A DNA stretch of 64,000 bases. It comes from Thermoanaerobaculia bacterium. GTDB taxonomy: Bacteria > Acidobacteriota > Thermoanaerobaculia > Multivoradales > J023. The stretch lies in NCBI GenBank assembly GCA_030431255.1, contig JAUIJL010000015.1, positions 1 to 64,000 on the forward strand, in the 5' to 3' direction. The notes under the pieces are model-generated. The model did not search any database. It was not told where the DNA came from and saw only the letters and a list, made by a program, of their open reading frames with translations. Positions within the stretch are counted from its first letter, which is position 1, and each line of letters begins with the position of its first letter. Of the stretch, positions 5,590 through 18,789 are shown piece by piece. Made by a program: the position numbers and the translations under genes.

Positions 5590-6125
5590 GGATACCTCTC
5601 CTAGTATGAATCGACAAAAGAGAATGCTAAGCCCGATGTCTCAAAAAGTCCAATAGGAGCCGGCGGCGGGTTTCCGTTCGCCATCTCGGCTCGACGGGCA
5701 AATCGTGTTGCTTCTCGGAACCCGAGGGGATGGAGAGGCCGATCTTCGAACGGCCTTGATCATCGTTCGCCTCGAATTCTGGCCCATGCTAATCTTAATG
5801 CTGCGACTCACTTTTGCTGCGTGCAAGCGGGGGGAGCCGAGTCTCTTGTGACGGTGTGTTTTTCTCGATTTCGCGACAATTCAAGTCGAGCGTCGGGGAG
5901 CCCGGAGGGCCGATTCACGGATGTTGTTTCGTTGACAAGATCGTTGGTTATTCGGTAAATTTTACTGACGTTATTTCTGCTTTCAGGGGTTCTGGACAAT
6001 ATACCGCTTCTTTTTGGACAGTCCATCGGCAGGCTCAAATGCCCAAAGGCAGGGTCGACGGCAGTACGTCGATGGCTTGGAGCGCGCTAAAAGGGCCGGA
6101 GATGTCCGAATCCTAGGTGAATCTG
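5590..6125. other. Intergenic region between divergent sugar genes
   Basis: 536 bp between the leftward GT4 gene and the rightward polysaccharide operon. No convincing ORF. It is less GC-rich at 5920-6010, where a sigma-70-like promoter is visible. The remaining ~150 bp before the first gene is an untranslated leader with no motif I can name. Confidence 0.6.
5932..5961 (+). promoter_or_regulatory. Probable sigma-70 promoter of the polysaccharide operon
   Basis: A perfect -35 TTGACA (5932-5937) is followed after 17-18 bp by GTAAAT/TAAATT. This lies in an AT-rich pocket about 165 bp before the first start codon. Confidence 0.55.
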
Positions 6126-8030
6126 ATGAATGATGCGCGGCGCCAGCTTCTGCACGAGATGTTCAAGCTGGTGGATTTGGTCATCATGATGGTGGCCTTC
6201 GTTTTGGCTGTGTGGGTGTCTCTAAATCCCAGTGCCCCGGAAGTGGTGAGCACGGGCTCGGACGAGGACGTTTTACCCGTGCAGCTCGCCGGCGCCGACG
6301 AGCGGGAGTTTCCATCGGCCGGGTTAGCCGATCTCGATCCCGCGACTGAGCCATCGAGCTCTTCCATGGCCGGCCCACGGTCGGAGACTGAATCGGTTGG
6401 GCCGGAAGACCTCTCGTCGATGAGCTCGGAATCCCGAGAAGCGCCGAGCTCCACTCAGCTCCAGGGTGTTCTTTCCTCGGAGCCCACAGGCGAGCCCGAT
6501 CCGACGGCGTCAAGGGCACCGCCCGCCAACACGCCCACCGAGTCCTTCCTGGTGAATTGGTGGCGTGAGCACGTCAAGAAATACGATCAAGCTGAAGCCG
6601 AGGCCGCGGAGCCGGATCGAGTGGAAGCGGTCTTGCGCCGAATCACCGTCGGCAACGTCTTCTTCGTCATGGCGATGCTGATCGTTTGGCACGCCGCGCT
6701 GAAGGGGCGAAGTCTCTACAACTCTCGCCGCTTGGATTCGACCCTCGGCGAGGTCCTCGACGTTTTGCGCGCCGGGTTTCTAGCCTCTTTGGTGGTCAGC
6801 GCCGTGGCCAATCCGGTCTTGCAAGCCAAGGGTCTGGACATCGATCCCGCCAGCTTCACCGTCCATTTCTTCCTCTTCGCCATCGGCACGACGGTGATCG
6901 TCAGGGTTTTGGTCCGACGTCTACTGGAATATATGCGGCTTCGCGGGCGAAATCTGCGGGCCGTGCTGATCATCGGCACCAACCATCGGGCCTTGCGATT
7001 CGCCAAGGCGATCGAGGCTCGGCCCGAGCTGGGTTATTACGTGGTCGGCTTCGTGGACGAGGAGTGGGACGGCATTGCGGGATTCAAGAAGGGCGGGCAC
7101 AAGCTCGTGGCCGGCCTGAAAGATCTGAGCTCCTACATCGCCAATCATGTGGTGGACGAGGTCGTGGTGGCCCTGCCGGTTTCCAGCGCCTATATCTACT
7201 CGTCGAGAATCGTCAGCCTGTGCCAAGAGCAGGGTTTGACGGTCCGCTTCGTGTCCCAGATTTTCGATTCGAGACTGGCGAAGGGCAAGCTGGACGTCTT
7301 CGACAACGAGCCGATGCTTTCTTTGGAGGGCACTCCCGACGAGAGCTTCAGCAATTTGTTCAAGCGCATGATGGACCGCTTCGCGGCGGCCGTATTGCTC
7401 TTCCTGCTGGCGCCCCTCTTCCTCTTGGTCGCGGCGGTGATCAAGCTGACGTCCAAAGGTCCGGTATTTTTCATCCAGCAGAGGGTGGGCCTGAACAAAC
7501 GCATGTTCGGGGTTTACAAATTCCGAACCATGGTGGAAGACGCCGAGGAGCGGCTGAAGGAGCTCGAGCATTTGAACGAGGTCTCAGGTCCCGTCTTCAA
7601 GTTGGAAAAAGATCCACGGTTGACCCCGATCGGCGATTTCTTGCGACGAACCAGTATCGACGAGCTGCCCCAGCTCATCAACGTGCTTCTGGGTGATATG
7701 AGCTTGGTGGGGCCGCGACCCCTGCCGGAACGCGACTATCGGGGTTTCGACACCGATGCCCATCGGCGCCGCTTGAGCGTGCGGCCCGGCATTACCTGCA
7801 CCTGGCAGGTGTCCGGCCGGAACTCGATTCCCTTTGAGCAGTGGATGCAAATGGACTTGGACTACATCGACAACTGGTCGATCTGGCTGGATTTCAAGCT
7901 GTTGCTACAGACGATTCCGGTGGTCTTGGGACCGTTGCTGTTCTTCCGCAAGGGCGAGTTCATGAAAGGTAAGGATCAAATCCAAGACGCGGAAACGGTG
8001 CCTTCGAATTCCGCGGGACAAGGCAGCTGA
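6126..8030 (+). CDS. Polyprenyl-phosphate hexose-1-phosphate transferase (polysaccharide initiation)
   Basis: 634 residues from ATG 6126, chosen because AGGTGA lies five bases upstream; a GTG at 6117 lacks an SD. It is a WcaJ/EpsE-type initiating enzyme that moves a hexose-1-phosphate from UDP-sugar to undecaprenyl phosphate at the inner membrane. Architecture: TM1 at ~15-35; a ~125-residue acidic Ser/Pro/Glu-rich segment; TM2-4 at ~175-265; a CoA-binding-like Rossmann domain (VLIIGTNHRA); TM5; and a catalytic PHPT domain with KFRTM, VGPRP and GITCTWQVSGRN. The long insertion between TM1 and TM2 is unusual for the family. It heads the operon. Confidence 0.92.
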   Translation: MNDARRQLLHEMFKLVDLVIMMVAFVLAVWVSLNPSAPEVVSTGSDEDVLPVQLAGADEREFPSAGLADLDPATEPSSSSMAGPRSETESVGPEDLSSMSSESREAPSSTQLQGVLSSEPTGEPDPTASRAPPANTPTESFLVNWWREHVKKYDQAEAEAAEPDRVEAVLRRITVGNVFFVMAMLIVWHAALKGRSLYNSRRLDSTLGEVLDVLRAGFLASLVVSAVANPVLQAKGLDIDPASFTVHFFLFAIGTTVIVRVLVRRLLEYMRLRGRNLRAVLIIGTNHRALRFAKAIEARPELGYYVVGFVDEEWDGIAGFKKGGHKLVAGLKDLSSYIANHVVDEVVVALPVSSAYIYSSRIVSLCQEQGLTVRFVSQIFDSRLAKGKLDVFDNEPMLSLEGTPDESFSNLFKRMMDRFAAAVLLFLLAPLFLLVAAVIKLTSKGPVFFIQQRVGLNKRMFGVYKFRTMVEDAEERLKELEHLNEVSGPVFKLEKDPRLTPIGDFLRRTSIDELPQLINVLLGDMSLVGPRPLPERDYRGFDTDAHRRRLSVRPGITCTWQVSGRNSIPFEQWMQMDLDYIDNWSIWLDFKLLLQTIPVVLGPLLFFRKGEFMKGKDQIQDAETVPSNSAGQGS

Positions 8031-8077
8031 CGCTCTAAGAGCCCACTAAAATCACCCCTCGATAGTAGGAGTTTCAT

Positions 8078-9031
8078 ATGCCCATTCCCGAGCTCGATGG
8101 TGTTTCGGTGCTTGTGACCGGAGGCGCCGGCTTCATTGGTGGACATCTGGTGGAAGAGCTGATCCGGTGCGGAGCCAAGGTTAAGGTCCTGGACGACCTG
8201 AGCACCGGCCTGGCCTCGAATTTGGAGTCGGTGCTCGATCAGATCGAATTCATCGAGGGAGACTTGCGGGATCGCTCGGATTGCGCCAAAGCCTGTGACG
8301 GCGTGGATACGATTTTTCATCAAGCGGCTCTGGGCTCGGTGCCTCGATCCGTCAAAGACCCGGCCTTGAGCTTGGCGGTCAATGTGGGTGGGACCTCGAA
8401 TCTATTTACCGCCGCCCGGGATCACGGAGCGCGGCGGATCGTCTTTGCCTCGTCGTCCAGCGTCTACGGTGACACGCCGACCCTGCCGAAGCGAGAAGGC
8501 GAGGAAGGCGACGTGCTCTCGCCTTACGCCATGTCCAAGCTGATGTGCGAGCAACTGGCGGAAATTTTTCAGCGCTGTTATCAGATGGAAATCATCGGTC
8601 TGCGGTACTTCAATGTATTCGGTCCCAGGCAGCGTCCCGACGGCCCCTACGCAGCGGTGATACCTCGCTTTTTCGCGGCCTATCACTCCGGCACCGCACC
8701 CACGATTTTCGGCGACGGCGAGCAAAGCCGTGACTTTACCTATGTCGGTGATGCGGTGCGCGCCAACCTCTTGGCGGCGGGAGCTCCGGCCGAAGCTTGT
8801 GGGCGCTCGTACAATGTGGCGGGCGGAAAGCGGGTGAGCCTCAACCAGCTCTGGAAGCTCATCCGCGACTTGGTGGGCGGTGGCCCCGAGCCGGAATACG
8901 GAGATCCTCGTCCCGGTGATGTCCGCCACTCCCTGGCCGATCTGGAGGCCGTGGGAGCGGGTCTGGGTTTCGAGCCGGAGGTGGGGATCGACCAAGGCCT
9001 GGCCATGACGTCTGAAGGTTACCGGCAGTGA
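8078..9031 (+). CDS. WbpP-like NAD-dependent sugar epimerase
   Basis: 317-residue extended SDR enzyme. The dinucleotide loop is GGAGFIGG at 15-22, the catalytic pair is Tyr150/Lys154 (Y-AMS-K), and the SSSSVYG strand is present. HQAALGSVPRSV is characteristic of UDP-HexNAc C4-epimerases such as WbpP/TviC, so UDP-GlcNAc/UDP-GalNAc (or the uronic acids) are the likely substrates. SD TAGGAG before the ATG. It supplies a nucleotide sugar to the neighbouring transferases. Confidence 0.9.
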   Translation: MPIPELDGVSVLVTGGAGFIGGHLVEELIRCGAKVKVLDDLSTGLASNLESVLDQIEFIEGDLRDRSDCAKACDGVDTIFHQAALGSVPRSVKDPALSLAVNVGGTSNLFTAARDHGARRIVFASSSSVYGDTPTLPKREGEEGDVLSPYAMSKLMCEQLAEIFQRCYQMEIIGLRYFNVFGPRQRPDGPYAAVIPRFFAAYHSGTAPTIFGDGEQSRDFTYVGDAVRANLLAAGAPAEACGRSYNVAGGKRVSLNQLWKLIRDLVGGGPEPEYGDPRPGDVRHSLADLEAVGAGLGFEPEVGIDQGLAMTSEGYRQ

Positions 9032-9111
9032 GCCCGAGCCGCTGATCCTGGATCTGCGCGGATTTGTCGAGTCTTCCGGGCAGGGCACGACAAGGCCCTG
9101 GCTTCAGATGA

Positions 9112-9117
9112 TAGGCT
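9112..9117 (+). promoter_or_regulatory. Possible -10 element of a leaderless transcript
   Basis: TAGGCT lies six bases before the ATG at 9124, which has no SD. The spacing suits transcription starting at the start codon. Single-site evidence only. Confidence 0.25.
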
Positions 9118-9123
9118 AAACTT

Positions 9124-10311
9124 ATGGCGAAAGTTTCAGCTCCGCCGCCCAAGCGGCTGCGGATTGCATTTCTCGGCGCTCGAGGGGTCGTAGGTACCTA
9201 TTCTGGTATCGAGACTTACTACGAAGAAGTCGGATCGAGGTTGGTGCAACGGGGTCATGAGGTGACCGCCTATTGTCGTACCTACTTCACCCCGCCCATG
9301 GACGAGTATCGGGGAGTCCGGGTTCGACGCCTGCCGTGCCTCCAGGGCAAGCACATCGAAACCATGTCCCACAGCCTTTTGGGGACCCTGGATCTGCTCT
9401 TTCGCCGATTCGACATCGTGCAATACCACGCCATCGGATCCGCGCCTCTAGCTTGGATCCCCCGTTTATTCGGCAAAAAGACCGTGGTCTCCGTCAGGGG
9501 GCTGGACTGGCAGCGGGGCAAGTGGGGGCTGCTGGCTCGGTCCTATTTGCAAGCGGGTGAATGGGCGTCCGCCCGCTGCCCTAGCGCTACCTGCGTGGTT
9601 TCGGGGGTCCTACAAGACCACTACGAAAAAACCCACGGCCGCCGTCCGTTCATGATCCAAAACGCCGTCGTGCCGCCGGTGCGCGTTCCGGTAGAGCGCC
9701 TCCATGAGCACGGATTGGGCTCGGGTGATTTCTTGCTCTTCGCAGGACGGTTGTCTCCGGAAAAAGGCGTACACACCTTGTTGGAAGCCCTCCAACCGCT
9801 TTCTGAAGCCGGTATCACCCAGGGCAAGAAGTTGGTCATCGCGGGCGGGACGAGCTTCACAGATTCTTACATCCAGCAGCTTCAAGAGCTCGCGGGTCCG
9901 GACGTGATCTTTCTCGGCCGGGTGGATAGAGATTTCATGCACGAGCTGCTCAGCCATTGCTACGCCTACATACTGCCTTCGGTGATGGAAGGGCTGTCGA
10001 TCGGTTTGTTGGAAGCCCTGAGCTATGGGTTGTGCATTGTGACGACCGCGATTCCCGAGAATCTAGAGGTGGTCGGCGACGTGGCGTTGACCTTTCCTGC
10101 GGGGGATGTCGAAGCTCTTCGGGCGCAGCTCGAAAGAGTCCTGAAAGACTCGGATCTGGCGGAAAGCCATCGCGTGATGGCCGCGGAGCGGGCGGCGAAT
10201 TGGCCGGATTGGGACGGGGTCGCCGAGCTGACGGAATCCCTTTATTTGCAGACCCTCGGTTTGAGTGAGCCGGCCGTCGACGATCCCACCGCCCGAGCCG
10301 AGAGCGCCTAA
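9124..10311 (+). CDS. DUF1972/GT4 glycosyltransferase
   Basis: 395 residues. The N-terminus IAFLGARGVVGTYSGIET is the DUF1972 acceptor domain, seen in rhamnosyl-type transferases such as the Cps2T group. The GT4 donor domain follows, with FAGRLSPEKGVHTLLEAL and the E-x7-E motif (E-GLSIGLL-E). It likely adds the second or a later sugar to the lipid-linked repeat unit at the cytoplasmic face. No SD precedes the ATG. Confidence 0.9.
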   Translation: MAKVSAPPPKRLRIAFLGARGVVGTYSGIETYYEEVGSRLVQRGHEVTAYCRTYFTPPMDEYRGVRVRRLPCLQGKHIETMSHSLLGTLDLLFRRFDIVQYHAIGSAPLAWIPRLFGKKTVVSVRGLDWQRGKWGLLARSYLQAGEWASARCPSATCVVSGVLQDHYEKTHGRRPFMIQNAVVPPVRVPVERLHEHGLGSGDFLLFAGRLSPEKGVHTLLEALQPLSEAGITQGKKLVIAGGTSFTDSYIQQLQELAGPDVIFLGRVDRDFMHELLSHCYAYILPSVMEGLSIGLLEALSYGLCIVTTAIPENLEVVGDVALTFPAGDVEALRAQLERVLKDSDLAESHRVMAAERAANWPDWDGVAELTESLYLQTLGLSEPAVDDPTARAESA

Positions 10312-10318
10312 GAGATCC

Positions 10319-11929
10319 ATGGGCGACAGCATTGTTTCGGACCTTAAGCGGGTCTCGTCGTCGAGCGGTCTTTACGCGGTAGCCAACATGCTACAGCGAG
10401 GGCTGTCGTTCATCCTGCTGCCCGTCTACACCCGATTCCTGGACGTCGCGGAATACGGGATTCTCGACATGTTGAGCGGCCTTTCGGCCATCCTCTTCGG
10501 CCTGCTGCTTTTGGGGATGCCGTCGGCCCTGACCAAGGTCTACCATCGGGACTGTAAGACGCCGGAGGATCAGAAGTCCCTTTTGGTCACGGCTCTGGCC
10601 CTGGATTTACCGCCTCTTCTCGTCGGTGCGGGCAGCTTGTTTATTTTCGCCGAGAAGATCGGAATCTGGATCTTGGGCGAGGCCGGTCGCGCCGATGTGG
10701 TGCGGCTGGCAGTGGTCACCGTGGTTTTTTCCAGCCTGGTGGCGATCGTGCTCTCCAGCTTCCGCACCCGCGAGCGAGCGATTTCCTACGCCTTGCTGAA
10801 TTTCATGCAATTCGGCCTGGGCATGTTGTTGAACATCGCGCTCGTGGTTTGGTTCCGGATGGGAGTCCACGGCGTGCTCTGGGGCAACCTGATTTCGTCC
10901 GTCGCGGCTCTGCCCATCGGTTTGATCATGGCGCGAAAGGACTTCCGGTGGACCTTCGAGGAGCGTCTCGTGCAGCCGTTGTTGCACTTCGGCATCTTGG
11001 TGATTCCGAGCGCGATCACCGGGTGGGTAATCACCATGGCCGATCGATATGTGCTGCGCTACTACGGCAGCCTGGAGGAAGTGGCGGTCTACGGGGTCGG
11101 CTATAAGATCGGCATGATCATGCAGATGGGTTTGGTGTGGCCGTTCCAATTGGCTTGGCCGGCAGTGGCGTTTTCGATTTCCAAGCGCAAGGTTCACCGG
11201 CGCACGTTTGCCCGAGTGCTCACGTATTTGTGTTTCGCCATGACCATCGGCGTGCTGGGTCTCTCCCTTTGCTCCCAAGCGGGGCTGGACGAATTTGCCG
11301 GACCCAGCTACGCCAAATCCTATTCGGTGGTGCCGTTGGTCGCCTTGGCCTATGCCTTCGCCGGGATTCAATTCTGTTTGTCTCCGGGCATTCATATCGC
11401 CGGCAAGACCCGTTACTTGCCGCTCTTTTCCGGCATCGCCGCGACGGTGAACTTGGGCCTGAATTTGTATTGGGTACCCAAATTCGGCATGTTGGGAGCC
11501 ACTTGGGCCACCTCGGTCTCCTATTTTTTGTTGGCTTTCATGACCGCCGCATTGAGCCAGAAGGTGTATTGGTTGCCGCTGGAAAAGGGGCGCCTGGCTC
11601 GCATTGTGTTGGCGGGATCCACAGTCTATTTGCTCGGATCCGCGGTGCCTTTGTGGGATGGGTTGGTCGAAGGGTTGACCTGGGCGCTCTTCCTATCCTG
11701 CGCCGCGTTTCCGGCCTTGCTGCTAGCCACCGGTTTCTTGAGGCCCGGTGAGCGCAAGGTGATCGCGGAGCTGTATAACCGCTACACCCCTTGGACGGTG
11801 GAGGTGCCCAGTGTGGATCCGGAAGTGGATCTAGATGTTTCCGGCACGGATATTCCGATGCCGGACCTATCCCTCTTGAAGCCGCCTGCCGGAGAGGTTG
11901 GAGAAAAAGATGACAGAGACGAGCCCTAG
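10319..11929 (+). CDS. Wzx-type polysaccharide flippase
   Basis: 536 residues from ATG 10319, eight bases after the previous stop. An upstream in-frame GTG (10265) would overlap that gene and add a non-membrane tail, so it was not used. About 12-14 hydrophobic segments run from SGLYAVANMLQRGLSFILL onward, with the N-terminal signature (VYTRFLDVAEYGILDMLS) of the MOP/PST exporters. A charged cytoplasmic tail of ~60 residues ends the protein. It should flip lipid-linked repeat units across the inner membrane. The matching Wzy polymerase and Wza/Wzc exporters are not in the window. Confidence 0.9.
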   Translation: MGDSIVSDLKRVSSSSGLYAVANMLQRGLSFILLPVYTRFLDVAEYGILDMLSGLSAILFGLLLLGMPSALTKVYHRDCKTPEDQKSLLVTALALDLPPLLVGAGSLFIFAEKIGIWILGEAGRADVVRLAVVTVVFSSLVAIVLSSFRTRERAISYALLNFMQFGLGMLLNIALVVWFRMGVHGVLWGNLISSVAALPIGLIMARKDFRWTFEERLVQPLLHFGILVIPSAITGWVITMADRYVLRYYGSLEEVAVYGVGYKIGMIMQMGLVWPFQLAWPAVAFSISKRKVHRRTFARVLTYLCFAMTIGVLGLSLCSQAGLDEFAGPSYAKSYSVVPLVALAYAFAGIQFCLSPGIHIAGKTRYLPLFSGIAATVNLGLNLYWVPKFGMLGATWATSVSYFLLAFMTAALSQKVYWLPLEKGRLARIVLAGSTVYLLGSAVPLWDGLVEGLTWALFLSCAAFPALLLATGFLRPGERKVIAELYNRYTPWTVEVPSVDPEVDLDVSGTDIPMPDLSLLKPPAGEVGEKDDRDEP

Positions 11930-12821
11930 AGCCCTGAGCGAGGACGAGCTCTCCTCGCTGGTCACCCAAAGTGTTCAGTCGACCCTGCTGGAATATCTGA
12001 ATGCGTGTCCCGTCTGTTTCTCCAGCGAGCTGAGGCATTATTGCCGTCGACCGTCACTTTTCAACAAAGGCGAGCACATCGTCTATGAGCATTGCACCGG
12101 CTGCGGGGTGGTGATGCGCAATCCTCGGATGCCGCCCAATCTGAGGCTTTCGATTTATGAGGACAAAATCCTCCCGGACGACCAAAAGCGGCTCCTGCCG
12201 CGCAATCAGCTGCATTACGCCTATATGCTGCGTTGGATCGAACGGTTGTACCCGGCCGACGCTCCGCGCCGTCTCTTCGATTTCGGCTGCGGTGCCGGCG
12301 GATTCTTGTTGGAGGCGCAAAAGGCGGGCTGGGATTGCATGGGTTTGGAGCTGAATAAAGATCTGGCTCGATTCGTGACCGAGACCTACGACATTCCGGT
12401 GTATCAGGGTCTTGTGGACGATGAGTCCTTCGCCCATGAGCGATTCAATATCGTGATTTCCGCCCAGGTCTTCGAGCATCTCCTGGATCCACGTCAAGCC
12501 CTGGTCGATCTCCGAGCTCATCTGGACGATCCGGGATTTGTCTTGATCGAGGTGCCCAACCAGCTTGCGTTCAAGGAACGGCTCAAGCGAGGGCGGACTA
12601 TGGACGATTCCCACCTCTTCTATTTCAGCGCGGCATCGCTTTCGTGGATGATGGAGGACCTTGGATTCGAGGTCTTGCACGTGCAGGAAGGTTTGAGGCC
12701 CTATCGGGCGTTCGCCGGCCTGACGAAGGTTCCACAGCCGTTGATGGAAGCGTGTATCGGTTGGATGGCTAGGATGCAGGTGCGCACCGGTCTTTCGGTG
12801 TTGGCGCGCCTAAAACCTTGA
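11910..12821 (+). CDS. Zinc-ribbon class I methyltransferase
   Basis: 303 residues from ATG 11910 (GGAGA six bases upstream), overlapping the flippase gene by 20 bp. The N-terminus has a four-cysteine ribbon (CPVC, then C-TGC about 27 residues later) of the kind preceding sugar C-methyltransferases. The SAM-binding motif I is FDFGCGAGGFLLEA, followed by an acidic end of strand beta-2 (GLELN). It may methylate the polysaccharide, its lipid-linked precursor or a nucleotide sugar. The acceptor is not deducible. Confidence 0.85.
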   Translation: MTETSPRALSEDELSSLVTQSVQSTLLEYLNACPVCFSSELRHYCRRPSLFNKGEHIVYEHCTGCGVVMRNPRMPPNLRLSIYEDKILPDDQKRLLPRNQLHYAYMLRWIERLYPADAPRRLFDFGCGAGGFLLEAQKAGWDCMGLELNKDLARFVTETYDIPVYQGLVDDESFAHERFNIVISAQVFEHLLDPRQALVDLRAHLDDPGFVLIEVPNQLAFKERLKRGRTMDDSHLFYFSAASLSWMMEDLGFEVLHVQEGLRPYRAFAGLTKVPQPLMEACIGWMARMQVRTGLSVLARLKP

Positions 12822-12839
12822 GCACGAGCGGGGGATACG

Positions 12840-14762
12840 ATGCCTGGTCTATTCGGAATGCTGACCCTCGAGCCGGGGGCGCCGTTGAATCGAGAGAGCC
12901 ACAGTGCTTTGCTCGATGAAATGGCGGATCGGCTTCAGCACGTCGGGCTCGAAAAGATGCAATTGTGGGCGGATTGGCAATCGGGTGTGGCGGTCGCGCG
13001 CATCGGGCCTGCGGAGCTGCTCCATCCGTCCTGGCCCGCTGAGGAGGGTCCTTCGGAGCCCCGATCGTCCGACTCCGATCGCGGAACGCCGCTCTTCTTT
13101 CTCGACGGCGTGTTGCATCCGGACTCGCCGACGCCGCAGGATCTCATTCGCGAGGCGGATCCGAGCGATGCCGAGATCGCCCGACGTCTCGAAGGATTTT
13201 GGAGCGGGGTTTGCTACCGACCCGGCGCCCGCGAGCGCCGACTGAGCGTTTTGGTGGACCGGCGGAGCCAGCGCCAGCTGTTTTGGATCGTCCAGGACGG
13301 GATCTTGTACTTCGCCCCCGAGGTGAAGGCGCTGTTGGCGGTTCCCGGCATCGATCGATCCCCCGATCCCGCGGCCCTGGGTGTCTTCTTCGCCTCCGGA
13401 TTTCTGCTGGCCGATCAAACCTTCTTTCCCGCCGTTCGACGCCTGGAAGGCGGCACCCTGTTGACGGTTGCCGACCACGAGCCGAGGGTCGAGCGATATG
13501 CCGATTATCGATTCACCGTCGAGGGTGACGGCACGCCTTATCCGGAAATCTGCGCGCTGCTCGGTGAGCGCATGCGCGAGGTGGTGGCGCGCAACTACAC
13601 GGATCCCGGCAGGGATTTGGTATTCCTCTCCGGGGGCAAAGATTCGCGCATCATCCTGGCGTCGGCGGTGGGTGCTGCTGGGGATGCGAGCAAGGTGAGG
13701 GCCGTCAGCTGGACTTCCAACGATCCTCAGCCGGGCTCGGACGTCTTCATCGCCCAGCAGCTGGCGTCGGATCTGGGAGTAGACCTGCAAGTCATCCGAC
13801 GGACGACTGATGGCTACCACTCCAAATCCTTGCGTCTGACCTACGTTTTGGATGGTCTGACCGACGTCGGCGCCTTCCACGGTGAAGAGCTGCACCTCAT
13901 GTCCGAGCTGGAGGAGCAGGGCGCCCGCAAGGTGCTGCGCGGGGATCAATGTTTTACTCGGGGTCGCTCCATGCTGAGCCCCGCCTACGCCATCCTGCGC
14001 ATGTGCATTCGCTCCACGTCGGGCCTGGCGGACGGACGGAGCTCGTGGCGGTCCGGAGCCTACGAGAAGATCTGCACGGCGGGAGATGCCCTGCTCGAAG
14101 CCCTGGCGGCTGAATATGCCGACATCCAGGAAGACAACACCGGTGACGAGGTCTATTTCCGCCACCGCTTGCAGGGATACTTAAACTCTGCCGTCTACTT
14201 TAAGTTGCTCTATTTCGACCATCGAAATCCCCTGCTGGACGAGCGCATGCTGCGGCTGATCCAACGCCTGTCGATCGCCGCCAGGAGGGAGCAAAAGGTG
14301 TTGAACGAGGCGGGGGCGCTCGAATTTCCCGAGGTGTGGGGCAAATATCCCTTCGCGGAGCGGTCGAACCTGGAGGACTTCGTGGATCTGTTGGCCAAAG
14401 ACACGCCGGTTCGTCGAGCGGTGCGCGCCGAGCTGGACGATCGGGACAGCGCGGCGTGGGATTTCTTGGACCGCGAGGCCCTCATCCATCGTTTGGAAAG
14501 CCTGCGCTCGAGCGGCGGCTCTGCGGGCTGGAGGTCGAAGCTCAAGAAAGCCGTCAAGAACACCGTGGCCAAAGCGGTTTACGACATTCCCGCCATCGAC
14601 GTGAGATTGCGGGGTCACTATTTGAGACGGGAGACCCGGGACGACGAGGTGTTGTTGCGGGCTCTGACCCTCAAACACGTATTCGACCTCTTCGTCACCG
14701 GCGACGGCTCGCGGGCAGCCTACGAAAGCAAGCTCGCCCGTTTGGAGCACCCCCATGATTGA
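12840..14762 (+). CDS. Asparagine-synthetase-like amide synthetase without the glutaminase cysteine
   Basis: 640 residues with the AsnB layout: an Ntn-type glutamine amidotransferase-like domain (~1-210) and an AMP-forming synthetase domain with the PP-loop SGGKDS near 263-268. The start reads Met-Pro-Gly-Leu-Phe-Gly where active AsnB enzymes have Met-Cys-Gly-Ile-Phe/Ala-Gly. The catalytic Cys is therefore absent and glutamine hydrolysis is not expected. AsnB-like proteins in O-antigen loci (e.g. WbpS) amidate uronic acids. Cys-less members such as beta-lactam synthetase use an internal amine. Here it probably activates a carboxylate for amide formation with ammonia or an amine. It overlaps the next gene by 8 bp. 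Confidence 0.85.
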   Translation: MPGLFGMLTLEPGAPLNRESHSALLDEMADRLQHVGLEKMQLWADWQSGVAVARIGPAELLHPSWPAEEGPSEPRSSDSDRGTPLFFLDGVLHPDSPTPQDLIREADPSDAEIARRLEGFWSGVCYRPGARERRLSVLVDRRSQRQLFWIVQDGILYFAPEVKALLAVPGIDRSPDPAALGVFFASGFLLADQTFFPAVRRLEGGTLLTVADHEPRVERYADYRFTVEGDGTPYPEICALLGERMREVVARNYTDPGRDLVFLSGGKDSRIILASAVGAAGDASKVRAVSWTSNDPQPGSDVFIAQQLASDLGVDLQVIRRTTDGYHSKSLRLTYVLDGLTDVGAFHGEELHLMSELEEQGARKVLRGDQCFTRGRSMLSPAYAILRMCIRSTSGLADGRSSWRSGAYEKICTAGDALLEALAAEYADIQEDNTGDEVYFRHRLQGYLNSAVYFKLLYFDHRNPLLDERMLRLIQRLSIAARREQKVLNEAGALEFPEVWGKYPFAERSNLEDFVDLLAKDTPVRRAVRAELDDRDSAAWDFLDREALIHRLESLRSSGGSAGWRSKLKKAVKNTVAKAVYDIPAIDVRLRGHYLRRETRDDEVLLRALTLKHVFDLFVTGDGSRAAYESKLARLEHPHD

Positions 14763-15945
14763 GAGTCTGGTGGAGGTCCTGAGGTGCCCGGAGAGCGGCA
14801 AAGATCTGACGCTGGCCCATGTCGGTGATTGGTTCGAGCTCAACGGGCAACGTCACGTGGTCGACGGCATCTTGCAGGCCGTCGGCGAGCCCGACAAACG
14901 CTATCCGATTCTCGATGAGATCCCTCACCTGGTGCCCAGGTGGTGGGTCAAAGACGAGGAGCAAGCCTACCTGGATGCCCACCTGGACGACCACCGGCTG
15001 GATTGGAACGAGGAGCGGCGGGTCGAGCCGGAGATCGTCACCGACGAGGATCTGGAGGCTGATATTCGGAATCGGATGGAGAGGCAGTACCAACTGACCG
15101 ACGCGAGCCCGCCGCTGACCCGTCAGCGTTGCGAGGGTGAGATTCGATACATGCTTTCCGAAGCCCGCGGCACTAATAAGCTCAAATATGTGAAGGCTTT
15201 GGCGCCCTATGTGGAACGGGTGGATTCGGTGCTCGAAACCGGTGGGAATTTTCCCGGTCTGACCCGCAATTTGCAGGAAAGGTATCGACCGTCCCTAGCC
15301 GTGGTGGCCAATATTCAGATCCTCTTCCCCAAAGCCTTCAAGACGCCGAATCGGCAAATCGCCGCGGTCCGCGCGGATGTCCAGGCCTTGCCGTTCAAAA
15401 GCGGGAGCTTCGAGCTGGTGGCGTCCGGGTTCATGTTGGAGCATGTTCCCGATTGGAAGGCCGGGTTACGGTGCATGATGGACGTCGGCGAGAAGGTCTT
15501 TCTGGCTTTCGGTCCGAACAAATGGTTCCCCTTCGAGGTCGGCCACATCAACGCGCCCCTAGCGGGAACCCTTCCCAAGCCGATCGCCGCCTATGTCGCC
15601 TGGTTCTGGTTGGCCGCGGTCGGGCGCCGTCGACCCATGCATCGGATTCGGGCTATCTTGGCAGAAGTCTTCCACGTCGGCTCCCGGGCGTTTCGCCGCG
15701 AGGCCGAGCGTCTGGGAGGTATGACGCGCAATCTATTTCCCGAGATCATCGACATCATCGTTCGGGATGCCAACGCCCCGCCCACCGGGCCCCGAAAGGT
15801 GCTCAAGCGGTTTCCCCGCCTAGCGGGATTTTCCGCCCGGCTGCTGACGACCTTGGGTATGGAGCCTCAGATCTACTACCTGATCGATTCCGGCGCGGCT
15901 GCCGGTCACCCCCCGCCATCCAGCGAGCTCAGGATCTCCCGATAG
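14755..15945 (+). CDS. Trm112-like domain fused to a divergent methyltransferase
   Basis: 396 residues, starting inside the previous gene. Residues 1-60 (LVEVLRCPESGKDL ... YPILDEIPHLVP) match the Trm112p/UPF0434 fold, with one Cys kept and the other zinc ligands lost. Residues ~150-260 look like a class I methyltransferase, but motif I reads VLETGGNFPG instead of the usual Asp-x-Gly-x-Gly, so SAM binding may be weak or altered. FELVASGFMLEHVPD is the family's post-motif-II strand and helix. A C-terminal ~130-residue basic/hydrophobic tail is unassigned. It is the last gene of the operon; its 3' end overlaps the convergent alcohol dehydrogenase by 40 bp. Confidence 0.75.
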   Translation: MIESLVEVLRCPESGKDLTLAHVGDWFELNGQRHVVDGILQAVGEPDKRYPILDEIPHLVPRWWVKDEEQAYLDAHLDDHRLDWNEERRVEPEIVTDEDLEADIRNRMERQYQLTDASPPLTRQRCEGEIRYMLSEARGTNKLKYVKALAPYVERVDSVLETGGNFPGLTRNLQERYRPSLAVVANIQILFPKAFKTPNRQIAAVRADVQALPFKSGSFELVASGFMLEHVPDWKAGLRCMMDVGEKVFLAFGPNKWFPFEVGHINAPLAGTLPKPIAAYVAWFWLAAVGRRRPMHRIRAILAEVFHVGSRAFRREAERLGGMTRNLFPEIIDIIVRDANAPPTGPRKVLKRFPRLAGFSARLLTTLGMEPQIYYLIDSGAAAGHPPPSSELRISR

Positions 15946-17087
15946 CTGGTGGGGGACATGGGCTGCGGATTCGAGCGATTGGAGCCGTTGCGGACGGCGG
16001 CGGCGGCGATGGTTTCATGTTCCTCGGTCGGTACTTTCAGGGAATCGAAGCCTGGAATCTCGAGTCGTTTGCACAGATCCTCCAGGTCGCTGAGGAATCG
16101 ATCCGCGCGTTCGCCGTCCGATGGCCCGTCGGCGGAATCCATGGGCTCCAGGGCCGAAGTGCAATGCAGATGTTTGTCGATCCACGCCAAGCGATCCAAG
16201 GCGGCTTGGCGGTGGTATCGCATGACCGGCGCCAGCAGGATGGCGTTGGCCAGCCCGTGGGGCACGTCGTAGAGGCCGCCGAGGGCTTCAGAAAGGCAGT
16301 GAACCGCCGCCACATCGGCGTTTCCGAAGGCCAAGCCCGCCAAGGTCGAGGCTCGCATCACGGCTTCGCGAGCCTCGGTATCGGATTCGATGTCGGCGAC
16401 GGCGCGCGGCAGATATTGAAAGAGCAAGCGAACGGCTTGAATCGCGATGGCGTCGGACACCGCATTGGCCGCCAGGCAGGTGATGCACTCCACGGCGTGG
16501 GTGAGGGCGTCGACCCCGGTCCAGGCGACCATATTCGGGGGCAGGGATTTTAGGAGGTCGGCGTCGACCAGGGCTTGGTCGGGAAACATGGTTTCACCCT
16601 TGACGCTGATTTTGGATCGAGTGGGCTCGTGGGTGAGGACCGAGACCCAGGTGACCTCGGAGCCGGTGCCGCAGGTGGTGGGAATGGCGATGAATGGCTT
16701 TGGTCTTTCCGTGTAGCGATCCTTGCCCTCGTATTGCTCGATGCGCTGGCTGTTGGTGGCGAGCATGGCAGCGGCCTTGGCCGCGTCGATGACGCTGCCG
16801 CCCCCTAAGGCGATCACCCCGTCCAATTGGTCGGCCTTGAGCGCCTCGCTCGCGGCGGTGACCGTGGAAGTCCGCGGATTGGGCTCGACCGCGTCAAATA
16901 CCCTGACCCGGAATCCCGTGGATTCGAGGTTCTCGCAAGCCGACGTCAGCCAGTTGGTGTGATCTCTGATCCCGGGATCGACCACCAAAAGGGCTGATTG
17001 AAGACCGAGCCGCCTGGCGGCTTCGGGAAGCCTTTCAAAGGCTCCCGGCTCGATGTGAACGCGAGTGGGCATTCGAAATCCGATCAT
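15906..17087 (-). CDS. Iron-containing (group III) alcohol dehydrogenase
   Basis: 393 residues, full length for the family. The NAD(P) loop is GVIALGGGSVIDAAKA. Metal-binding histidines lie in AAVHCLSEALGG and DVPHGLANA. It oxidises or reduces a small alcohol/aldehyde in the cytosol. SD AGGA before ATG. It is divergent from the P450 gene across 253 bp and may share a control region with it. Confidence 0.92.
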   Translation of the reverse strand: MIGFRMPTRVHIEPGAFERLPEAARRLGLQSALLVVDPGIRDHTNWLTSACENLESTGFRVRVFDAVEPNPRTSTVTAASEALKADQLDGVIALGGGSVIDAAKAAAMLATNSQRIEQYEGKDRYTERPKPFIAIPTTCGTGSEVTWVSVLTHEPTRSKISVKGETMFPDQALVDADLLKSLPPNMVAWTGVDALTHAVECITCLAANAVSDAIAIQAVRLLFQYLPRAVADIESDTEAREAVMRASTLAGLAFGNADVAAVHCLSEALGGLYDVPHGLANAILLAPVMRYHRQAALDRLAWIDKHLHCTSALEPMDSADGPSDGERADRFLSDLEDLCKRLEIPGFDSLKVPTEEHETIAAAAVRNGSNRSNPQPMSPTSYREILSSLDGGG

Positions 17088-17340
17088 TACAAATCCTCAT
17101 GAAATGGAATCAGCAGGCACCGACCTGCTGGTGACTTTAACCGTTTCGGTGCGGCTTGTCAGCGTTCGGAGGCCGGTGCAGAGCCGCCGCGGGCTGGTTG
17201 GTGTGGCCGGAGGGTCCGCGGTCTGTGGAGCGGGCCCAGGTGCGATAAGATATAGATGGGCTGTCCTGAAGTCGTTGCCTCGAGGCGAGTGTCGGGAGGC
17301 CGGCTCAAAGACGGCCGAATTCTGCATCCGGGAGATCACC

Positions 17341-18789
17341 ATGGCGAAGTCCATTGCGCAAGAATGTCCACACATGAAAGCGGCGGGCTCCGCCCAAAGC
17401 TCGGTTTCGGCAAAGGAATCGGCTTCCCGCGACCTAGCGCCGATGGATCTGCCCGTCCCTTCGATCCCGAAGTGGAAAGCGAATCTGCGCTTCTTGACCC
17501 AGCCGTTCCAGCTGATTTCCGAGGTGAGAGCAGAATGCGGCGACTTGTTTTTGATGGAGCTTCCGGGGCTCGGACGGGTGGTTTTTCTTTGCCGCGCCGA
17601 TCTCTTGCACGAGGTCTACCGCTACGGCGAAGACGAGGTCGTCGCGGGGGAAATGCGAGGTCGTCATCTAGCCGCTCTGATGGGTGACAAGGTCAGCGTC
17701 TGCTTGGACGGTGACGAATTCAAAGATCGCAGGCGGATCATTGCGCCGTATTTGAACGGCAAGCAGGTCGAGCAGTGCTTGCCGCGCATCGTCGGCTACA
17801 CCGAAGAGATGATCGACGAGCTGCGCAGTGGGGCGGAGGAAGAGCTCCAACCGAGATTCGATCATCTGACTCAGCGAACCATCGCGAGCATCCTATTCGG
17901 TGGTCAGCCCCAAGAGAAAGTCGACGAGCTGGCGGTGCTGGCACATCGTTTTCTGGAGGCTTTCCAATGGCGCACGGTGCAAGTGCCTTTCTTGAGGCGA
18001 TCTTTGGGACCCTGGAGCCCTTGGAGCCGTTTTCTCAAACGGAGGGCCGAGTTTTCTCGGGTTCTGGAAGCCGAGGCGAGGCGCGCGGCGGCATCCGGGG
18101 ATACGGAGGCCTCGGATTTGATGTCGGCGATGGTCGTGGCCGGGTTGTACGAGGATCCTGAAGAGGTCATCGATGCGGTGGTGCAGGAGATGATCGGGTT
18201 GGTGGTCGGTGGGGCGGAAACCACTTCCAAGGCTTTGTCCTGGTGTCTGCGCGGGCTGCTGAGCCGTCCGGAGACGAAAGGAAAGCTGCAGGAAGAGCTC
18301 GATCGCTTGCTGGGAGATCGCCCGATGACTGCTCGGGATCTCAAAGATTTACCCTATCTGCATGCGGTCATCCACGAAGGGCTGCGGCACCAGAGCGTTG
18401 GCCCCTTTGCCGGCCCCCGCTTGGCGAAGAAGGAGATCGTGGTGGGTGGTTATCGGATTCCGCCGGAAACCGCCATGGTCCAGGCGTTGCACGAGGTGGG
18501 GCGTGGACCCCATTTTCCGGATTCCGAGAGCTTTGATCCCGAGCACTTCTTCGGCCGCGAGGTGAAGCAACGGGATTGGGTTCCCTTTGGGGGCGGCATT
18601 CGAAAATGCACCGGCATGGGATTGGCGCTGGTCGAGCTCGCCGGGGTGATCGGCACCCTGGTGCAGCGGACGGAGATGGAGCTCGGGAGCGGGTCGATGG
18701 AGCCGATCCAGGCGGGCATCGCCCACAAACCTCGCAACGATATGCGGGTGAAATTTACCGGGCGGAGATCCGGGGCCGACCCGAGCTAG
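17341..18789 (+). CDS. Cytochrome P450 (CYP110-like, soluble)
   Basis: 482 residues from ATG 17341, chosen for the GGGAG seven bases upstream; longer in-frame starts lack an SD. The I-helix [12 protein letters not shown] (~290) has the acid-Thr pair. The K-helix E-x-x-R is in HEGLRH (~345). The heme loop [14 protein letters not shown] carries the axial Cys near 422. There is no membrane anchor. The FGGGIRKC-x-G form is typical of CYP110-like bacterial P450s acting on fatty acids, alkanes or terpenoids. No dedicated ferredoxin or reductase gene is adjacent. Its stop overlaps the convergent adenosyltransferase by 4 bp. Confidence 0.93.

Follow-up and report, generated by a model that had tools for sequence, protein, structure and literature searches.

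Described Relatives and the Gene Studied

Relatives of the asparagine synthetase AsnB without an N-terminal cysteine are already known, namely beta-lactam synthetase and the lasso cyclases, and beta-lactam synthetase acts on small molecules in antibiotic clusters. In sugar-polymer loci, enzymes of the WbpS/WbqG/PGN_1234 type convert the carboxylate of a uronic acid into an amide, and uronamide formation by PGN_1234/WbpS of P. gingivalis was studied with a deletion mutant (excerpts of PMC7468200). A putative asparagine synthase is encoded in the b-Cool locus, whose glycan contains uronamides (excerpt of PMC12407052), and the AsnB-like enzyme PesC accepts ammonia in place of glutamine (excerpt of PMC13060819). 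The subject of this study is a gene for an AsnB-like protein with Pro at residue 2 (Pro2) instead of the usual Cys (Cys2), located at positions 12840–14762 on the plus strand of a 64,000-nucleotide stretch, here called the window, of contig JAUIJL010000015.1 (assembly GCA_030431255.1, Thermoanaerobaculia bacterium). The source genome belongs to the Acidobacteriota and has a size of 10.2 Mb.

The protein shares with E. coli AsnB (1ct9) the two-domain fold and the SGGxDS PP-loop, but of the features of AsnB it has lost the Cys nucleophile, RxKxGF, three of the five pocket residues and the greater part of GDGGDE. TsnB9 (7ylz) starts with MCG, keeping the Cys, and has SGGLDSS, unlike the protein studied. 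Beta-lactam and carbapenam synthetases are similar in fold and have a Cys-less pseudo-glutaminase domain, a feature shared by the Pro2 protein; beta-lactam synthetase was matched through profiles and not by the query sequence alone. The WbpS/WbqG/PGN_1234 uronamide synthases are encoded, as here, by an AsnB-like gene in sugar-polymer loci, whereas the query lacks their Cys and scores far below their family cut-off. Finally, SGGxDSR proteins of Geothrix, Chromohalobacter, Methylobacter, Bacillaceae and others carry SGGYDSR, have no recognised Met-Cys-Gly start and in many cases lie in polysaccharide loci; their N-terminal domain is shorter than that of the query.

The protein may be a functional ligase that forms amides at the expense of ATP, its glutaminase domain having been inactive ever since the N-terminal Cys was lost in the distant past; to this reading we give an even chance. 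The PP-loop and nearby Arg, Asp and Pro residues are kept while the nucleophile and part of the glutamine pocket are lost, which points to an enzyme that consumes ATP without hydrolysing glutamine.

Gene, Start Codon and Fold

The gene is an intact open reading frame (ORF) of 640 amino acids, with the ATG at 12840 and the stop codon ending at 14762. It encodes a degenerate class II glutaminase domain (approximately residues 1–210) and a PP-loop synthetase domain (approximately residues 211–640). The N-terminus reads MPGLFGM, so that residue 2 is Pro, and LSGGKDSR occupies residues 263–270 (SGGKDS, 264–269), with RGDQ at 367–370. Reading of the ORF thus confirmed the first-pass annotation in both the SGGKDS adenylation loop and the replacement of Cys by Pro2. 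The check for an upstream Met-Cys-Gly start found none in frame: the nearest upstream in-frame stop (12819–12821) is also the stop codon of the preceding methyltransferase gene, and the interval to the ATG consists of the six codons GCA CGA GCG GGG GAT ACG, with no start codon and no Cys codon, so that an earlier start cannot restore Met-Cys-Gly. A misread start was therefore rejected.

The AlphaFold2 model, built from a 35-sequence alignment, had a predicted local distance difference test (pLDDT) value of 87.7 and a predicted template modelling (pTM) score of 0.89, and showed the two-domain AsnB fold; the layout proposed from the sequence was upheld by this model and by its structural alignment to AsnB-type folds. 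The nearest solved fold was TsnB9 (Z 27.3, 519 residues, 15% identity), which was also the best profile match of the query in the PDB. For E. coli AsnB the Z score was 24.2 (438 residues) and for beta-lactam synthetase (1m1z) it was 23.8 (419 residues), the beta-lactam and carbapenam synthetase folds together ranging from 21.6 to 23.8. LarE and QueC-type PP-loop enzymes were also among the matches. A phmmer search of the PDB with the query sequence alone gave no credible match.

At family level, the only Pfam match was a weak one to Asn_synthase (PF00733; 22.6 bits, gathering cut-off 21, residues 260–369), which places the protein in the superfamily. The glutamine-hydrolysing asparagine synthase model TIGR01536 gave 53.1 bits, under its cut-off of 267.1. 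Membership in the WbpS/XrtA amidotransferase family (eps_aminotran_1, TIGR03108), to which a comparison had been proposed, was not borne out and was rejected (55.1 bits, cut-off 816.9). Membership among the lasso peptide cyclases (NF033535) was also rejected (21.8 bits, cut-off 525).

Residues Lost and Kept in the Active Site

Residues were compared with nine Cys2 AsnB proteins from the relatives' loci as the reference, not with E. coli AsnB itself. The columns R49, N74, G75, E76 and D98 (E. coli AsnB numbering), which we take to form the glutamine pocket, hold R, D, G, V and T in the query, so that two of five are kept; the D98 column (Asp of the TDTE motif, Thr in the query) is poorly aligned. 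None of the 11 non-AsnB rows has Asn in the N74 column, and the query has Val in place of E76. Among ten relatives aligned alongside it, the pocket Gly is present in 10/10 and the Glu in 8/10, the Arg and the Asn are absent throughout (0/10 each), and the Asp is left in L145 only.

The PP-loop is complete in the query and is directly followed by Arg270, and the proposed check of the ATP site thus found its signature intact. Residues L263, S264, G265, G266, D268, S269 and R270 are identical in 18/18 aligned proteins of the Pro2 lineages, and R251 (17/18), D301 (17/18) and D467 (17/17) are conserved in the same alignment. A Cys-dependent glutaminase is very unlikely, given that there is no Cys start and that Pro2 is conserved in distant relatives.

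Conservation of Pro2 and Phylogenetic Position

A search with the C-terminal domain among 72 genomes of the order found no ortholog, only the gene itself (1/72), and the phylum-wide search gave hits in 60 of 396 genomes at E ≤ 0.05, many of them short PP-loop pieces. A contig scan of the genome collection with the query alone found no relative; a profile search was therefore made with an alignment including three Cys-less Acidobacteriota proteins, and yielded 76 loci, chosen by patterns including SGG[YK]D[SC]R, so that DSR is largely built into the set. The nearest relative, L060, from a gammaproteobacterial metagenome-assembled genome, is 31% identical and starts with MPGLFG; other starts in the closest clade (group A) are MPGLLG (L061), MPGLAG (L063) and VPGFTG (L076, assigned to this group by its VPG start). 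Two further proteins, L144 (MPGIAG) and L145 (VPGIFG), came from a profile search covering 297 genomes of Acidobacteriota, and two more, L187 (MPGIFG) and L196 (MPGILG), from searching 12 of the locus genomes. Subgroup B (L064, L065, L068, L072, L075 and L099) starts with MPN or VPN. In subgroup C, whose aligned rows are 15–26% identical to the query, position 2 is Ser, Ala or Thr (starts read by eye), and the starts of subgroup D are mostly unreadable.

Conservation of Pro2 had been set beforehand as a test, and it was passed, as distant relatives also carry Pro2. In an alignment of 18 full-N-domain proteins including the query, made without subgroups C, D and E, the partial second L063 copy (MPGFAG) and L163, Pro2 was present in 15, the exceptions being the three tandem genes of the L062 contig; by conservation the Pro2 column tied with four others at places 10–14 of 193 N-domain columns. 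Pro2 proteins span four deep lineages and about eight phyla. A recent local mutation was rejected, being contradicted by this conservation. A search of 98 genomes of relatives gave ordinary AsnB proteins (L005–L028), with Cys2 in 22 of 24 (21 read automatically and L016, MCG, by eye) and unreadable starts in L017 and L025. As a separate observation, L147 (Acidobacteriota, genome G176) is a canonical AsnB with GDGGDE and SGGIDSS but with Ser2 (MSGICG), perhaps a separate loss of Cys.

The coupling of Pro2 with DSR was examined in 68 proteins not chosen by the loop pattern, taken from the top of profile and protein searches rather than as a random sample. Four combined Pro2 with DSR and 57 combined Cys2 with a non-DSR loop (55 by automated reading, plus L016 and L158, MCG by eye), with no crossed combination; the other seven had a different or unreadable residue 2. 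Among the 88 proteins of the pattern-chosen set, 65 carried DSR together with a position 2 that could not be read automatically. No MCG-like start-Cys was present in 78 pattern-chosen non-AsnB ORFs; four showed start-Cys pairs, none of them MCG, which by eye were internal (L082, L084, L087) or lay in an unrelated upstream extension (L069). Subgroup E (L084, L114 and L116) has SGGYDSR and a GLGGD motif, with Cys-Gly one to three residues further in (VSRICG, MSILCG and MLCG, respectively) and the Cys never directly after the start codon.

In a tree of 91 rows, the query and L060 formed a pair (Shimodaira–Hasegawa-like approximate likelihood ratio test, SH-aLRT, 99) within a clade of 43 rows (97), and a branch supported at 100 set the 12 GDGGDE-type AsnB rows apart. 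In a second tree of 47 rows, rooted on 19 ordinary AsnB proteins and made without subgroup D and with only eight rows of subgroup C, the 28 SGGxDSR proteins formed one side (100), the query and L060 again paired (96), subgroup E branched off first with weak support (81), and Pro2 occurred in four deep branches. The branches are long and the composition of many rows is unusual, which makes the inner order unsure. The simplest reading would be that the N-terminal Cys was lost once, long ago, and that most full-length lineages retained Pro2. Judged from these sequences, SGGxDSR proteins without Cys2 are an old, widespread and apparently unstudied branch and not a chance mutation. In searches of the open-licence PMC literature, neither a characterised Cys-less polysaccharide AsnB nor a description of a broad clade with Pro2 and DSR came up.

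Operon and Genomic Context

The gene lies in a same-strand run (6117–15945, plus strand) of polysaccharide genes and methyltransferases. The run begins with a polyprenyl glycosylphosphotransferase, which starts repeat units (6117–8030; TIGR03025, 400.9 bits, cut-off 295.55). In this protein a long stretch rich in Ser, Pro and Glu separates the first hydrophobic segment from the family match, the latter beginning at about residue 182. A NAD-dependent sugar epimerase follows (8078–9031), whose best NCBIfam match is TviC, a UDP-N-acetylglucosaminuronic acid (UDP-GlcNAcA) C4-epimerase, and then come a family 4 glycosyltransferase (GT4; 9124–10311), a Wzx-like flippase (Polysacc_synt; 10265–11929) and a class I S-adenosylmethionine (SAM) methyltransferase (Methyltransf_23; 11910–12821) with a Cys-rich N-terminus (CPVC...CTGC). 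The ORF of this methyltransferase was listed from a TTG at 11898, the ATG at 11910 being an alternative start. The spacing from it to the AsnB-like gene is 18 bases. A second methyltransferase (14755–15945), whose N-terminus weakly resembles Trm112 (NF038101, 28.2 bits, cut-off 77), overlaps the AsnB-like stop with its start. The location inside a polysaccharide operon was thus well founded, as the run is tight and includes a glycosylphosphotransferase, a GT4 enzyme and a Wzx-like flippase. Used as a marker for an orthologous locus, the second methyltransferase matched no more than weakly, in 3 of the 77 other genomes of relatives. Beyond the run, at 15906–18789, an Fe-containing alcohol dehydrogenase lies on the minus strand, tail to tail with the second methyltransferase; after it comes a plus-strand cytochrome P450.

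Three nucleoside diphosphate (NDP)-sugar dehydrogenases are encoded in the source genome, all outside the operon; because of them, the host can probably make uronic acids.

The neighbourhoods of relatives were compared in 75 of the 76 loci (all but L128, which is a short ORF), with neighbours within up to 10 kb. The counts are lower bounds, some contigs being short, and are raw, without a background rate or control genes; cluster names were given by eye and four representatives were checked. At least one labelled polysaccharide cluster was present in 24 of 33 loci of subgroup C, 18 of 26 of subgroup D and 3 of 6 of subgroup B. Subgroup D often adjoins Wbp-type uronic-acid genes (Gfo/Idh 14/26, DegT 14/26, NDP-sugar dehydrogenase 9/26, 2-epimerase 11/26), and of the four cluster representatives checked, the NDP-sugar dehydrogenase and the 2-epimerase passed their own cut-offs. 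The Acidobacteriota Pro2 loci L144 and L145 sit among glycosyltransferases.

In the closest clade, L060 is accompanied by a Sortilin/BNR-repeat gene and a molybdopterin oxidoreductase, and L061 by a PMT_2-type glycosyltransferase-like membrane protein. On the L062 contig (6673–13614), three tandem AsnB-like genes of this clade immediately follow an FG-GAP repeat gene that bears a type IX secretion system (T9SS) Por_Secre_tail. L063 (3351–12400) has at least two tandem copies (the second partial), with related repeat genes further upstream and a gene of 1040 amino acids between. The L062/L063 arrangement suggests a protein-linked rather than a polymer-linked role, and the SGGxDSR family may not be limited to polysaccharides.

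Proposed Function and Alternatives

If the protein is a working amide-forming ligase, its C-terminal domain would bind Mg-ATP and adenylate a carboxylate, most likely that of a uronic acid on a nucleotide sugar or on the lipid-linked repeat unit of the operon's polysaccharide. Free ammonia or a primary amine, either being possible as the nitrogen source, would then attack the adenylate, and the N-terminal domain may be retained as a structural lid or as part of the acceptor site. Attack of an adenylated carboxylate by ammonia or an amine is suggested by the AsnB-like glycan genes that make uronamides, together with the use of ammonia by PesC.

Several observations weigh against this proposal. 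The decay of the pocket is uneven, E76 surviving in 8/10 relatives and R49 in the query but not in them. GDGGDE of AsnB is shortened to RGDQ in the query, and RxKxGF, whose Lys is presumably the catalytic Lys of AsnB, has no counterpart in its clade, where the alignment shows a gap; on these two changes, the chemistry may have changed, and the loss of RxKxGF is the chief warning that it may differ. The operon itself contains no nucleotide-sugar dehydrogenase, and its epimerase remains under the TviC cut-off (266 versus 760 bits). None of the five closest-clade loci (L060, L061, L062, L063 and L076; 0/5) and none in subgroup E (0/3) had a labelled polysaccharide cluster, one of the two unplaced loci did (1/2), and L062 and L063 are preceded by FG-GAP repeat genes. 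The nearest relative is, at 31% identity, distant. Since no labelled cluster came from the closest clade, the link to polymer chemistry rests mainly on the query operon, on L144 and L145, and on the sister subgroups.

The alternative that survives best, although unlikely, is an intramolecular or small-molecule amide or lactam synthetase, in which the nucleophile is the substrate's own amine and the product lies outside the polymer. The fold match to the likewise Cys-less beta-lactam synthetase (Z ~23) is in its favour, as are the tandem genes of L062 and L063, which follow secreted-type repeat proteins and not sugar genes, and the P450 and Fe-containing alcohol dehydrogenase after the operon. 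The low score with the lasso-cyclase model (21.8 of 525 bits) speaks against it, as does the close packing of the query gene with its neighbours, by overlap or near contact, within a same-strand polysaccharide run.

A somewhat less likely alternative is that the protein has no catalytic activity and serves the polysaccharide machinery as a scaffold or as a regulatory pseudoenzyme. Both halves of the protein are indeed altered, with glutaminase residues lost, RxKxGF absent and GDGGDE changed to RGDQ, but the near-invariance of the PP-loop with Arg270 and of R251, D301 and D467 among the aligned proteins is unlike free decay.

Improbable in a similar measure, and placed just after the pseudoenzyme, is non-amide PP-loop chemistry, that is, thiolation, dehydration to a nitrile, or formation of a hydroxamate or ester. 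The altered AsnB hallmarks outside the PP-loop fit such chemistry, LarE and QueC-type enzymes match as well, the nearest fold, TsnB9, is a hydroxyamidotransferase, and the AsnB-like PesC forms nitriles (excerpt of PMC13060819). The two-domain AsnB architecture is, however, retained, and neither PesC, which according to the same excerpt takes glutamine or ammonia, nor TsnB9, which keeps Cys2, offers a direct Cys-less precedent.

We consider it very improbable that a separate glutaminase or amine-producing partner encoded elsewhere feeds ammonia in trans. Split glutaminase/synthetase systems exist in other enzyme families, but none of the eight neighbour genes scanned, six against Pfam and two against NCBIfam, was a glutaminase candidate, no genome-wide search for a partner having been made. 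An ordinary glutamine-dependent WbpS-type uronamide synthase, in which Cys was recently and locally mutated to Pro or the start was misread, can practically be set aside: context and fold are compatible with WbpS-like enzymes, but there is no other start, distant relatives share Pro2, three of five pocket residues are lost and the TIGR03108 score is far too low.

A bolder extension of the amide-ligase reading, which we hold to be quite improbable, is that the Pro2 clade is a large and ancient group of amide ligases with a conserved N-terminal prolyl residue in the place of the Ntn cysteine. Removal of the initiator Met is usual before Pro, and the secondary amine thus exposed would do more than occupy a dead pocket: it might act as a base in catalysis or capture amines or form imines, so that amines other than ammonia from glutamine would be joined to glycans and perhaps to secreted proteins.

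Significance for the Family

Proteins of this kind are easily annotated as asparagine synthase, as in the case of the Halorussus plasmid relative, which is annotated as 'asparagine synthase-related protein'. The absence of Cys2, often with Pro2, combined with DSR after the ATP loop, provides a signature by which they can be sorted and a tractable member picked for enzymology, for instance one of Geothrix, Methylobacter or Chromohalobacter. If the SGGxDSR clade in its entirety splits no glutamine, many sugar-polymer clusters in numerous phyla are being misread, and polymers may bear overlooked amine-linked substituents.

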